Source: Acholeplasmataceae bacterium
GTDB taxonomy: Bacteria; Bacillota_I; Bacilli_A; Acholeplasmatales; UBA5453
Direction of reading: 5' to 3'
Assembly (NCBI GenBank): GCA_012800005.1
Contig: JAAZKC010000095.1
Location: 1-33,965 of the forward strand
DNA length: 33,965 bases
Program-made: the position numbers and the translations under genes
In this document: in pieces, positions 5,020 to 12,591 of the stretch
Position numbering within the stretch: the stretch's first letter is position 1
How the letters are laid out: every line of letters starts with the position of its first letter
Notes under the pieces: model-generated
Database searches by the model: none
What the model was told of the DNA's origin: nothing
The model's input: only the letters and a program-made list of their open reading frames with translations

Positions 5020-7697
<2,678 letters not shown>

Positions 7698-7701
7698 CAA
7701 T

Positions 7702-7728
7702 AAAAACGGCGATTTAACGCCGTTTTTT
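7702..7728 (+). terminator. Intrinsic terminator after purA
   Basis: AAAACGGCG-atttaa-CGCCGTTTT followed by T-run. Confidence 0.85.
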
Positions 7729-7786
7729 GATATAAAGATAGATTTAAATATTTATGTTTGTTAAAATATAATAGGAGGAAAAAATT

Positions 7787-8272
7787 ATGAAAAAATATAC
7801 TACCGTAAATGTTATAACAATCATACTATTAACAATTAGTGCTTTAATTCATTTTGGAACCATCAAAAAAGAAGTTTTTATTTATGAGGTGTGGTTTTTT
7901 ATACCTTTAACTCTTTTTTTAGTACTTTTAACTATTGTGATATTAGAAAAAACATTGTCTTTAAAAGTTTTCACAATTTTAAAGATGGTTTTAATGTCTA
8001 TTTCTATTTTATTGTTAGCTTATATTTATATAGATGCCGCAATTAATTTTATTCCTGAGATACAAGAAGTATTTGACTTCTTTTATGGTAAAGGATGGCG
8101 GGTTGCGATATTTGTGATATTTTTTATAATTCCTCTTGTGGTATTTATTGGGTTTGCGTTTGGGTACTTTTTACCAATACTTTTACTTTTAATAGCGTTT
8201 TTTATAACTTTGATAGTATTTATTAAACAATTAAAAAGCCTAAAAAGAAGCAATACAGTCAATCTCAACTAA
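7787..8272 (+). CDS. Small multi-pass membrane protein, unknown function
   Basis: Strong SD (aggagg) 5' of ATG; 161 aa with several hydrophobic helices. Confidence 0.65.
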   Translation: MKKYTTVNVITIILLTISALIHFGTIKKEVFIYEVWFFIPLTLFLVLLTIVILEKTLSLKVFTILKMVLMSISILLLAYIYIDAAINFIPEIQEVFDFFYGKGWRVAIFVIFFIIPLVVFIGFAFGYFLPILLLLIAFFITLIVFIKQLKSLKRSNTVNLN

Positions 8273-8611
8273 AACATCTTTAGGTAGTCTAGAAACTTCT
8301 AAAGCAACTCGCGCTGGTTTATGAGATTTAAAGAAATCCTCATAAGCTTTATTCATAATACTAAAATCATTTAAATCTTTTAAATAAACATGGCATTTAA
8401 CGATGTGTTCTTTTTTCATTCCCGCCTCATTAACAATCGCTAAAATATATTCTAAGCACTTTTTAGTTGCTTCATATATATCATTAATAGGAGTGCCAGT
8501 ATCTATATCTACTGGCAGTTGTCCTGAAACATATAAGGTGTTGTTAACTAAAATGCCTTGGCTATATGGACCTACCACCTTTGGTGCTTTATTTGTATTA
8601 ATAAATTTCAT
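8240..8611 (-). CDS. ridA: RidA/YjgF/YER057c/UK114 family enamine deaminase
   Basis: NTNKAPKVVGPYSQGILVNNTLYVSGQLPVD...VEIDCIASF is characteristic of the RidA family; SD AAAGGGGGA on the minus strand. Confidence 0.92.
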   Translation of the reverse strand: MKFINTNKAPKVVGPYSQGILVNNTLYVSGQLPVDIDTGTPINDIYEATKKCLEYILAIVNEAGMKKEHIVKCHVYLKDLNDFSIMNKAYEDFFKSHKPARVALEVSRLPKDVLVEIDCIASF

Positions 8612-8789: not shown

Positions 8790-10088
8790 TTGATGGAAAA
8801 AATTAATTTTGAACGAAGCATTGTTGTAAAAAAGAAGACTTATACATTAAGAGAATTAGTGGATAAGTTATCTTCACTTTCAAGTGAAGTTGTTAAAGAT
8901 TTCTTTGGTTTAATAGGCTTAACAGTGCCAAGAAAAATAAGAATGCATGCGTTAAGAGAAACCCTTAAAGAAACTGTTTATAAGACCATTGAAGAAAGAG
9001 AATCTTTGGCTGATGAGTTAGGTTATAGATTATCTTGGTTTAAAAGATATTCTGAATATCAACTTGAAAACTTGCTTAAGTATTTCAATGATGAAAAACT
9101 TAACAAAGAATATTTAGAAAGATTGTGGGTTTTATTAATTGATTATCTTTTAGATAAAAAAGTATCAGAAGATGAATTTATTAACTTTATTAACAAAAAA
9201 GTTAAAAACGAAGATGATATTCATACATATAATGAAAAGATAAATCCAATTTTCTTTGATGAACCAAATGAAATTGATGGCCTACATCCAAATATTTTTA
9301 GACCAGTTCTTTATAAGAGCTCAACATTAGTTGAAATTAGAGAAATTGGTAGAAAATATGGAGTTAATGTTCCAAGAAGATTAAAGAAAAATGAATTAGC
9401 GGATATTATTGTTGATGAATTAAGAGAACGCGGTGAACACACTCCTGAGTTAGAAACACATTTAAGAGGTCTTTCAATTATTATGATGCAAAGGTTTGCT
9501 AAAGATAGAGATATTAAAGCTTCTACTGAACTTAAGAAAGAAGAAATTATCGAATATATATTAGCTAATGCACAAGAAACGAAAGAAGCATATTACTTAC
9601 CATCAGATAGTTCAATTTATGAACAAGAACTTAATGAACCAGTTAAAAAAGCTGAAGTTGTAGAAGAAGTTATTGAGGAAGTAGTTGAAGAGGTAGTAGA
9701 AGAACCACAAGAAACTTTAACTAGCGCAGAACAAGAACTGCTATTAGAAGAAATTAAGAAACTTAACGAAGAAGTAGTTCGTCTTCAAGATCAACTTAAG
9801 GAATTAAAAGAAGGAAGAGAATTTTTAGATGAGGAGTTTGAAGAAGAACCATTTGTTCATTATCACGAACACCATCACTACCATCATTATGATGAGGAGG
9901 ACAGTTCTTTAATAAAAAAAGAAGATCCTCAAGAAATAGTTGAGGACCCTGAAGAAGAATCACAAGATGTTTTAGTAACACCTGAAGAAAAGAACAGAAA
10001 ACCTTTAGTTTTAATCCTTAATGTGTTAATTGTTTTAGCGGTTGTGATTTTAACAGTTATTTTATTAATGATTCATAAAGTTATTTAA
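8790..10088 (+). CDS. Tail-anchored protein with SAP/HeH/Rho-N-like segments, acidic coiled-coil and His-rich stretch; unknown function
   Basis: SAP/Rho-N-like LVEIREIGRKYGVNVPRRLKKNELADIIVDEL followed by a second helical segment, VEEVIEEVVEEVVEE repeats, VHYHEHHHYHHYDEED, and one C-terminal hydrophobic helix (LVLILNVLIVLAVVILTVILLMI). Confidence 0.75.
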   Translation: MMEKINFERSIVVKKKTYTLRELVDKLSSLSSEVVKDFFGLIGLTVPRKIRMHALRETLKETVYKTIEERESLADELGYRLSWFKRYSEYQLENLLKYFNDEKLNKEYLERLWVLLIDYLLDKKVSEDEFINFINKKVKNEDDIHTYNEKINPIFFDEPNEIDGLHPNIFRPVLYKSSTLVEIREIGRKYGVNVPRRLKKNELADIIVDELRERGEHTPELETHLRGLSIIMMQRFAKDRDIKASTELKKEEIIEYILANAQETKEAYYLPSDSSIYEQELNEPVKKAEVVEEVIEEVVEEVVEEPQETLTSAEQELLLEEIKKLNEEVVRLQDQLKELKEGREFLDEEFEEEPFVHYHEHHHYHHYDEEDSSLIKKEDPQEIVEDPEEESQDVLVTPEEKNRKPLVLILNVLIVLAVVILTVILLMIHKVI

Positions 10089-10219: not shown

Positions 10220-10602
10220 ATGTTCATAGATAGAGAAAAAGAACTAATGTTTTTAGAAGAAAAATTAAATAGTAAAATATTTGAATTTGGCGTGCTTCAT
10301 GGAAGAAGAAGGGTTGGAAAGACTGTTTTTATAAAGGAAGCGATAAAGGGGAAGAATGCGATTTATTTTCAAGCACATCAAACTAATATGGAAATTAATT
10401 TAGAACTTTTATCTTCTCTTTACGGGAAATATAAGAATATGGTCAAAATATCTTATAATTCAATGTATGAGTTATTTAGACAGTTTTTTTAGAGGAAGAT
10501 TTGATTGTGGTTATTGATGAGTTTACTTATTTAACAAAGATAGATAAAGGTTTTGAGTCAATGCTACAAAATTTAATTGGTGAATATAAAAATAAAACAA
10601 CA
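10220..10602 (+). pseudogene. AAA ATPase (COG1672-like) 5' fragment, frameshifted and truncated
   Basis: MFIDREKELMFLEEKL..VLHGRRRVGKTVFIKEA (Walker A), frameshift in the T7 run 10484-10490, then LIVVIDEFTYL (Walker B) continuing until it changes into GalE-like sequence. Confidence 0.8.
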
Positions 10603-11281
10603 TTTAATTTAGTTAAGTTTGCACTTAAATATAAGGTTCCTAAATTTATTTTTTCATCAAGTGCTACAGTTTATGGCGATTAAAAATCACCATTTAATGA
10701 AGAAATGCCAAGAGGCATCACCACAAACCCTTATGGAGAAACAAAGAAAATGAATGAACGTATCTTAGAAGATATCGCTTATGCAAATAAAGATTTTAGT
10801 GTAGTTTTATTAAAATATTTTAATCCTATTGGGGCTCACAAATCAGGACTGATTGGTGAGAAACCAACAGGAATTCCAAATAATTTAATGCCTTATATTA
10901 CTCAAACCGCAAAAGGTATTATAAAAAAACTTTATGCTTTTGGAAATGATTATAATACTATCGACGGTACTGGAGTTAGAGATTATATTCACGTTGTTGA
11001 TTTTGCGAAAGGGCATGTTAAAGTACTAGAATATAATCATAAAGAGTAGAGATATTTAATCTTGGCATAGGAAAAGGAACCTCAGTATTAGAAATAGTAA
11101 ACGCATTTGAAAAAGAAAATAAGATTAAAATTCCTTATGAAATAACGGATAGACGTCTTGGTGATATTGATGAGAGTTATGCATCAATTGATAAAACTAA
11201 AAAAATTTTTAACTTGAAGCAAAACTAACAATTGAAGATATGGTTAGAGATTCTTGGAATTTTGAAAAGAATTTAAAATAG
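10597..11281 (+). pseudogene. galE: Decayed 5'-truncated UDP-glucose 4-epimerase
   Basis: KFIFSSSATVYGD, in-frame TAA at 10681, [63 protein letters not shown], frameshift ~11046, IFNLGIGKGTSVLEIVNAFE, second frameshift ~11210, IEDMVRDSWNFEKN. Confidence 0.92.
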
Positions 11282-11376: not shown

Positions 11377-11763
11377 TTATTTTTTTTCTTTAAATGTTCT
11401 AACATCTACAAAGGGTAATATTATTGGCGGAAGCAGTGCTGCTCCAGTTAACGAATTAAGGGCAGACCTTATAAATGGGAATATTATTTGTATTGCACCG
11501 ACATTTAAAAAATCTTTTAACTCGTCTTCAGAATGGTATTCACTAACAAAAAAAGTTGATTCATAAATAACATTTATATCTAATGGAAATGCGTTTTCAG
11601 CAGTGTTTTGAAGTTTTAATTCAACTTCAACTACATAAGTGTCGGATTCTATTTTAGTAATCTTTTTGTAATATTTAGGAACGATTTTGAAGTCTTCCCC
11701 TAATAAACCGTTATCATATAATAGCAGTTTTTTAGCAAGAATATCTGTATGTCTGTATCTCAT
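11377..11763 (-). CDS. SecB-like chaperone (putative TAC chaperone)
   Basis: C-terminal half FFVSEYHSEDELKDFLNVGAIQIIFPFIRSALNSLTGAALLPPIILPFVDVRTF follows SecB (FP-x-R, L-x-PPx-LP). Start set to ATG at 11763 because of SD AAAGGGGAAG; third gene after a toxin-antitoxin pair. Confidence 0.75.
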   Translation of the reverse strand: MRYRHTDILAKKLLLYDNGLLGEDFKIVPKYYKKITKIESDTYVVEVELKLQNTAENAFPLDINVIYESTFFVSEYHSEDELKDFLNVGAIQIIFPFIRSALNSLTGAALLPPIILPFVDVRTFKEKK

Positions 11764-12163
11764 TTTTTTCTTCCCCTTTATACACATAAATATCTTCTTT
11801 TTTAAGATTATTTTCTTTTGAATTAAATTTATAAAATTCTTCTAAAAAATTTTGGTAAAATTTGTTTTCGAAAAACTCAACGTTTTTATCAATTATCTCA
11901 ATTTTCAAATCTAAAGCATCGACAAGCTTAATGATAGTATTTAATCTTGGAGAATGTGCTTGTGCTTCTATTCTTGCGATGGCTGATTGATTAAGGCCAA
12001 CTAAGTCTCCTAATTCTTTTTGAGTTAGTCCCTTTTTATTTCTTGCTTCAATAATATTTTGGATAATTTTTTTCTCAAGGCGGTAGTCATCGCCCCATTT
12101 TTTTAATAATTCACTTTTTTCTTCAAGTTTTTCAAAAAAAGTTAATGCATTTTTCTTTTTCAT
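11732..12163 (-). CDS. HigA-like XRE antitoxin with C-terminal extension (candidate chaperone-addiction region)
   Basis: HTH: IIEARNKKGLTQKELGDLVGLNQSAIARIEAQAHSPRLNTIIKLVDALDLKIEI; then ~50 aa aromatic/charged tail. ATG 12163 preferred over GTG 12172, with SD AGGTGA. Confidence 0.85.
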   Translation of the reverse strand: MKKKNALTFFEKLEEKSELLKKWGDDYRLEKKIIQNIIEARNKKGLTQKELGDLVGLNQSAIARIEAQAHSPRLNTIIKLVDALDLKIEIIDKNVEFFENKFYQNFLEEFYKFNSKENNLKKEDIYVYKGEEKNEIQTYRYSC

Positions 12164-12172
12164 ATTTATCAC

Positions 12173-12526
12173 CTATTTAATTTGTCCCTTTTTAATATCA
12201 TTAATATATCTTTTTGCTTTATTTATTTCATTTGGCGGAAGTTTTGGAGTTTTTTTGTAAAATCCTTGTAGAATATAAAATTTATTATTAAAGCAAGTAA
12301 AAAAAATTCTTATTTTTGGCGGTCTTAATTCAAAAAGATTGTCATCTATTTTTTTATAACTTTCCCTTTTAAATTTAGAATTCATTTTAAATCCATGTTC
12401 TGACAATTTTTCAATGTATAACATAATGTTTCCATAATCTGTTCCTTTTTTAGAACCTTCCATTTCATTAATTAAGTCAAGTATCAAAGCATTGTCTTCA
12501 CTTGGATAATACTCAATATCATACAT
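12173..12526 (-). CDS. HigB/Gp49-like (RelE superfamily) toxin
   Basis: 117 aa; IMLYIEKLSEHGFKM..KKIDDNLFELRPPKIRIFFTCFNNKFYILQGFYKKTPKLPPNEINKAKRYINDI is a typical HigB/Gp49 C-terminal half; immediately 5' of the XRE gene. Confidence 0.85.
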   Translation of the reverse strand: MYDIEYYPSEDNALILDLINEMEGSKKGTDYGNIMLYIEKLSEHGFKMNSKFKRESYKKIDDNLFELRPPKIRIFFTCFNNKFYILQGFYKKTPKLPPNEINKAKRYINDIKKGQIK

Positions 12527-12541
12527 TTAAGCACATCCTTA

Positions 12542-12557
12542 ATAACAAATTTGTTAT
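12542..12557. promoter_or_regulatory. 16-bp perfect palindrome, candidate antitoxin operator
   Basis: ATAACAAATTTGTTAT between the toxin promoter and the toxin start codon, at the predicted transcription start. Confidence 0.7.
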
Positions 12558-12562
12558 AATTG

Positions 12563-12591
12563 ATTTTATCATTAGATAGGCTTCTTGTCAA
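12563..12591 (-). promoter_or_regulatory. Promoter of TAC operon
   Basis: Minus strand TTGACA (12591-12586), 17-nt spacer, TAAAAT (12568-12563). Confidence 0.75.

Follow-up and report, generated by a model that had tools for sequence, protein, structure and literature searches.

Organization of the operon and its control elements

A stretch of DNA of 33,965 nucleotides (hereafter the window) from a wall-less-type bacterium related to Acholeplasma was used for the analysis. An intact toxin-antitoxin-chaperone (TAC) operon with a promoter, a palindromic operator and a terminator is present at positions 11377-12591. Its three genes lie on the minus strand in the order toxin, antitoxin and chaperone, and the place, strand and order given in the original prediction were all recovered. 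The toxin gene (12173-12526) encodes a Gp49/HigB-type protein of 117 amino acids (Pfam Gp49). The antitoxin gene (11732-12163 from its ATG, with an alternative GTG start at 12172) encodes an XRE/HTH_3 protein of 143 amino acids (Pfam HTH_3), and the chaperone gene (11377-11763) a SecB-like protein of 128 amino acids (Pfam SecB). Nine nucleotides separate the toxin stop from the antitoxin start; the 3' end of the antitoxin gene and the start of the chaperone gene overlap by 32 nucleotides (11732-11763). Open frames and Shine-Dalgarno-like sites were found for all three genes.

The predicted promoter TTGACA-17-TAAAAT was found at 12591-12563 on the minus strand, with a TG before the -10 element. 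It is the top-scoring of the eight promoter-like sites in the window (11 of 12 matches); as a class such sites are not enriched here (8 against 10.9 expected in shuffles). A putative operator, ATAACAAATTTGTTAT, lies at 12542-12557 between the -10 element and the toxin start; it is a perfect 16-bp palindrome and the sole ATAACN6GTTAT of the window. The operon is closed by an intrinsic-terminator-like hairpin and T run at about 11366-11327 on the minus strand (fold z -4.1).

The ATAACN6GTTAT palindrome occurs 31-50 nucleotides 5' of the toxin gene in all ten homologous operons compared, one of which has a second copy further up. The remaining 893 kb of the genome examined holds four such sites, and about 0.001 would be expected per 250 nucleotides. 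Since the palindrome is also present 5' of the HigBA loci L088, L089, L099 and L100, it belongs to this HigBA family and not to TACs only.

Toxin

The toxin matched the Pfam Gp49 profile with 41.4 bits (E 1.5e-10), above the curated cut-off of 23.9 bits, which agrees with the proposed family. A profile built from eight TAC toxins matched Streptococcus pneumoniae HigB (6af3) in the PDB with E 3e-26 and Mycobacterium tuberculosis HigB1 with E 2e-4. The AlphaFold2 model (pLDDT 88) was matched by Foldseek with TM values of up to 0.84 to 6af3/6af4 and 0.70 to HigB1 (7awk). PMC9098466 discusses K58, E66, R68, R77, F93 and K95 of HigB1 as active-site residues, or as residues that toxicity requires or is linked to. 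They align with K58, E66, R68, R73, F89 and K91 of the toxin, all six of which are invariant across the TAC-toxin alignment. The model and the alignment together give a RelE-superfamily fold with the catalytic basic residues, and by fold and residues the protein is predicted to be an intact ribosome-dependent mRNA endonuclease. No match was found for it among PADLOC and NCBIfam families, and no further toxin copies were found in the genome.

Antitoxin and its C-terminal tail

The antitoxin matched Pfam HTH_3 with 48 bits (cut-off 23). Its best PDB match is the HigA of 6af3 (E 1e-19), with the HTH core alone aligned. Beyond this core the protein carries a C-terminal extension that two-gene relatives mostly lack. 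Antitoxins of the ten SecB-linked operons extend 31-81 amino acids past the HTH core (50 in the window copy), whereas, of nine HigBA relatives that lack SecB and have a complete antitoxin, seven have antitoxins ending 0-6 amino acids past it. The two exceptions, L089 and L100, keep a tail; at L089 SecB has been lost or was never present. Omitting these two and treating related loci as independent, the difference in tail length gives a Mann-Whitney p of 3.5e-4, used here descriptively. Phenylalanine, tryptophan and tyrosine make up 13% of the tails against 4% of the HTH cores of the SecB-linked antitoxins. Residues 94-143 of the window antitoxin (11735-11884, minus strand), 12 of 50 of which are aromatic, are thus considered a candidate chaperone-addiction (ChAD) tail.

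The window antitoxin ends in ...YRYSC, six residues shorter than its nearest relative, and does not have the terminal alanine present in four relatives; the C-terminal end of its tail may be altered. CmdA ends with LAA, like other known TAC antitoxins (PMC11618068). In TACs an antitoxin left without its chaperone is expected to be broken down by a housekeeping protease, often by way of a C-terminus with a final alanine. The M. tuberculosis ChAD motif EVPTWHRLSSYRG is not present in the window antitoxin, whose tail differs and is rich in tyrosine and phenylalanine. As the ChADs of compared TACs have no significant mutual similarity (PMC5105189), the missing motif does not speak against TAC membership.

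The tailed antitoxin of L100 (L100:187-1409) overlaps a third gene of about 150 amino acids (MKNIWTVIFNRAVVDEKTNS...). This gene is no secB, and neither Pfam nor NCBIfam gave a significant match for it. The locus may represent a TAC-like module in which another protein takes the place of the third partner.

SecB-like chaperone and SecA

The product of the third gene matched Pfam SecB (PF02556) with 33.8 bits, above the curated cut-off of 26. It also matched PADLOC PD-T4-9_C (5.5e-13), which we take to be the model of the CmdTAC chaperone. The predicted structure (pLDDT 94) has a SecB fold, as was anticipated from the sequence: the best PDB match is 5mtw, Rv1957 with its ChAD peptide (E 4e-7, TM 0.75), and the TM value to the SecB of 1ozb (SecB with the SecA C-terminus) is 0.82. 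Identity to Rv1957 and SecB is 14-18%. A SecB-fold chaperone is therefore encoded inside a toxin-antitoxin operon. Single-sequence searches of viral contigs, genome contigs, phages and plasmids with the chaperone gave no match, so a profile search was needed to find its homologues.

The genome was found to have a single secB. Its sole SecA is full length (817 amino acids) but has at its end no SEC-C zinc motif, the docking site of canonical SecB on SecA, and SEC-C was not found over the cut-off anywhere in the genome. This argues against canonical SecB-SecA docking. Many relatives with a solitary SecB also have no SEC-C over the cut-off, and its absence alone is therefore not proof of dedication to the antitoxin. 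Taken with the single SecB and with ClpP and ClpX unseen in 65% of the genome, it makes a chaperone dedicated to the antitoxin rather than to export likely, in agreement with the original prediction. The argument used there, that SecB is usually absent from low-GC Gram-positives, did not hold: SecB homologues occur in 36 of the 160 genomes of the order, mostly solitary, and for A. laidlawii and A. oculi SecB is already published (PMC4221730). Rarity is hence a poor argument for dedication.

Could the third gene encode an ordinary export SecB that lies behind a HigBA pair by chance? Solitary homologues of SecB are frequent in the order, and in the SecB tree the TAC clade is sister to the solitary SecBs of genus g12, with weak support (93/77). 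Against this stand the SecA without a docking motif, the overlap of chaperone and antitoxin genes, the linkage of SecB to HigBA in ten operons, and an antitoxin tail that goes with SecB linkage. The absence of SEC-C and the gene linkage rule against an export identity, which we regard as highly improbable; the reading as a dedicated TAC chaperone is preferred. The chaperones of HigBA-type TACs do not form one clade in the tree (four changes needed).

Solitary SecB genes occupy conserved places in two genera: beside apparent rplM-rpsI in g12 (L014, L023 and L028) and beside chromate-transporter-like genes in g4 (L016, L022 and L025). Most of the g12 and g4 genomes with a solitary SecB have no SEC-C over the cut-off.

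Related operons, distribution and neighbors

Ten homologous HigBA-type TAC operons, including that of the window, were found in the class, with the toxin-antitoxin-chaperone order, the tail and the operator in common. Chance falls far short of explaining a gene set whose order recurs in ten operons. HigBA-type TACs with a chaperone are present in 7 of the 160 genomes of the order, and three more in other families of the class. The Mollicutes-like background named in the original prediction is borne out by the same-order matches of the chaperone profile, which come from Acholeplasmataceae, Anaeroplasma, Bacillota and Bacillales. In eight of the operons the distances of toxins, antitoxins and chaperones are correlated (Mantel r 0.64-0.79, p <= 0.003), an effect to which shared host ancestry could add. 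The literature searched, one key survey lying outside it, yielded no account of a TAC from this order, which does not amount to evidence of absence.

MqsRA-type TACs were also found (L003, L006, L026, L080, L081 and, on a viral contig, L039). The HigBA-type TAC L033 has AbiE and TOTE genes as neighbors; other TACs adjoin genes for a reverse transcriptase (L006), Abi_2 (L080), AAA_21 (L015) and NACHT (L003). Polysaccharide genes adjoin three HigBA-type TACs (window, L018 and L032).

A profile scan of viral contigs found distant SecB homologues only, one of them inside the MqsRA-type TAC of L039. In this IMG/VR contig, classed as viral, the TAC and its SecB lie at 6871-8348 near a recombinase gene, and a prophage or another mobile element appears to carry the module. 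At L015 a SecB homologue follows an HTH gene and an unknown gene and adjoins the AAA_21 gene, and at L019 another follows two unknown open reading frames; both are possible further TAC types.

Genomic setting and history of the locus

The genome assembly is fragmented (1.42 Mb in 167 contigs), with a contamination estimate of 8%. Several glycan genes of the window are 63-90% identical to their counterparts in a sister genus (G003), and relatives of the core gene at 8790-10088 turned up in each of the five family members that were searched; these matches place the contig in the family despite the estimated contamination. The neighbors of the TAC in the window are glycan genes and gene fragments, and no defence gene adjoins it.

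At 10220-11049, pieces of an ATPase_2 gene are joined directly to pieces of a galE-type epimerase gene. The open reading frame at 10501-10683 resembles an ATPase_2/galE chimera, a deletion junction beside the TAC.

In G003, two contig ends (L107:1-420 and L108:1500-2098) each hold part of a decayed TAC, which lies about 6 kb away from the same glycan locus. The split antitoxin reading frame suggests that these two contigs adjoin. The toxin of the decayed TAC has stops, the antitoxin core is open with its tail lost, the chaperone is mostly deleted and the operator is intact. An empty glycan site, as a simple recent insertion of the TAC would imply, was sought; the decayed copy some 6 kb away in G003 was found instead, so that such an insertion is not supported. 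The position of this copy speaks for a TAC that has resided at the glycan locus for longer within the family, and against a fresh insertion.

The window module might itself be a decaying or already inactive copy, given that its antitoxin tail stops early relative to four relatives and that gene fragments (10220-11049) adjoin the operon. We consider this unlikely: each of the three genes has an open frame and a Shine-Dalgarno-like site, no damage is seen in the active-site residues or in the promoter, operator and terminator, and the truly decayed TAC of G003 looks quite different.

Proposed mechanism and role

The prediction of a complete TAC system is upheld by the family matches, by two predicted folds compared with solved TAC proteins, by the active-site residues, and by the extended antitoxin, the common operator and recurrence as a unit. 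The sister genus, where decay has struck toxin, antitoxin tail and chaperone alike, also counts for this reading. From this anatomy, and from the folds, residues, recurrence, tail and operator, a complete HigBA-type TAC mechanism is very probable.

By its fold and residues, the toxin would cleave mRNA in a ribosome-dependent manner. The antitoxin would bind the toxin, and its HTH domain, judging from the conservation of the ATAACN6GTTAT palindrome, would repress the operon there. The aromatic C-terminal tail of the antitoxin would act as the chaperone-addiction region, and without the SecB-like tetramer the antitoxin would misfold and then be degraded.

Antitoxin turnover in CmdTAC has been reported to depend on ClpP (PMC11618068), and ClpXP is reported to degrade M. 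tuberculosis HigA1 (reference 17 of PMC11618068). ClpP and ClpX were not found in the 927 kb (65%) of the genome examined, nor was tmRNA found in that 65%. Lon was found in the same genome (L187:5219-8845, contig C64), its gene adjoining that of trigger factor with no clpX between them. If ClpXP is missing genome-wide, turnover of the antitoxin would depend on Lon or another protease; as ClpXP was unseen, degradation here would probably be by Lon. As in the HigBAC and CmdTAC models from E. coli, the chaperone may be captured, by a phage protein or through proteotoxic stress, so that the antitoxin is stripped of it and the toxin freed.

Two roles were considered for this anatomy. Phage defence by abortive infection appears the likeliest, because several relatives adjoin Abi, TOTE and reverse-transcriptase genes and because E. 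coli HigBAC and CmdTAC offer a precedent; we judge it rather probable from these neighbors and precedents. The same anatomy could serve a stress response or selfish maintenance, with a chaperone that reports general misfolding and a module that persists by addiction. The M. tuberculosis TAC is classically seen as stress control (PMC4257090, PMC5105189), the decayed G003 copy and the scattered occurrence in the order (7 of its 160 genomes) fit gain and loss, and the window copy has no adjoining defence gene. However, defence genes adjoin L033 and several other TACs, and two E. coli TACs have been shown to act against phages (PMC11980606, PMC11618068). A stress or selfish role is therefore regarded as quite possible, with phage defence as the preferred reading.

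A broader suggestion is that SecB-family chaperones of the Acholeplasmatales work off the export pathway, since SecA has no SEC-C even in relatives with a solitary SecB, and that the TAC is a Lon-read phage sensor rebuilt for a ClpXP-less cell. This suggestion is tentative, and we hold it as doubtful.

Gp49 toxins in TACs, and TACs in bacteria other than proteobacteria, are already on record, and SecB outside the alpha-, beta- and gamma-proteobacteria is linked to toxin-antitoxin genes in 63% of cases (PMC4257090). The operons described here make up a HigBA-type TAC family that is well supported in Acholeplasmatales and other Bacilli, in cells that lack the docking motif between SecB and SecA. 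Such a background is clean for testing TAC chaperone function apart from export, and for asking whether SecB-like chaperones sense phages outside the E. coli systems as well. Concrete constructs for chaperone-addiction experiments can be drawn from the ten operons and from the contrast between tailed and tailless antitoxins.

Comparison with known systems

Among solved structures, S. pneumoniae HigBA (6af3/6af4) comes nearest to the window operon, with E 3e-26 for the toxin and E 1e-19 for the core of the antitoxin. It differs in that its HigA chain has 97 amino acids without a tail and in that it is a two-protein module in the crystal.

The M. tuberculosis HigB1-HigA1-Rv1957 system shares with the window operon the toxin-antitoxin-chaperone order, a Gp49-family HigB with matching active-site residues, an HTH antitoxin with a C-terminal extension and a SecB-fold chaperone (5mtw being the best match). 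Unlike the window operon, it has the ChAD motif EVPTWHRLSSYRG, and the two chaperones are only 16-18% identical. In M. tuberculosis HigA1 is reported to be degraded by ClpXP, while ClpXP was unseen here in 65% of the genome.

E. coli HigBAC (PF_gp49 toxin), an anti-phage TAC (PMC11980606), resembles the window operon in toxin family and chaperone type, a likeness taken from its description in that report. E. coli CmdTAC is an anti-phage TAC as well, in which a capsid protein captures the chaperone (PMC11618068); across the E. coli TACs the captors are phage capsid or tail proteins (PMC11618068, PMC11980606). The window chaperone matches the CmdTAC/PD-T4-9 model (PD-T4-9_C, 5.5e-13). The toxin of CmdTAC is an ADP-ribosyltransferase, in contrast to the mRNase-type toxin here, and its antitoxin consists of two helices and a long unstructured C-terminal part, in contrast to the HTH domain and tail of the window antitoxin. 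Membership in CmdTAC was ruled out by the toxin fold (Gp49/RelE and not the ADP-ribosyltransferase CmdT).

The original prediction took the M. tuberculosis TAC as its model. For the role of the module, E. coli HigBAC and CmdTAC are the better functional models, because they have since been demonstrated as anti-phage systems.
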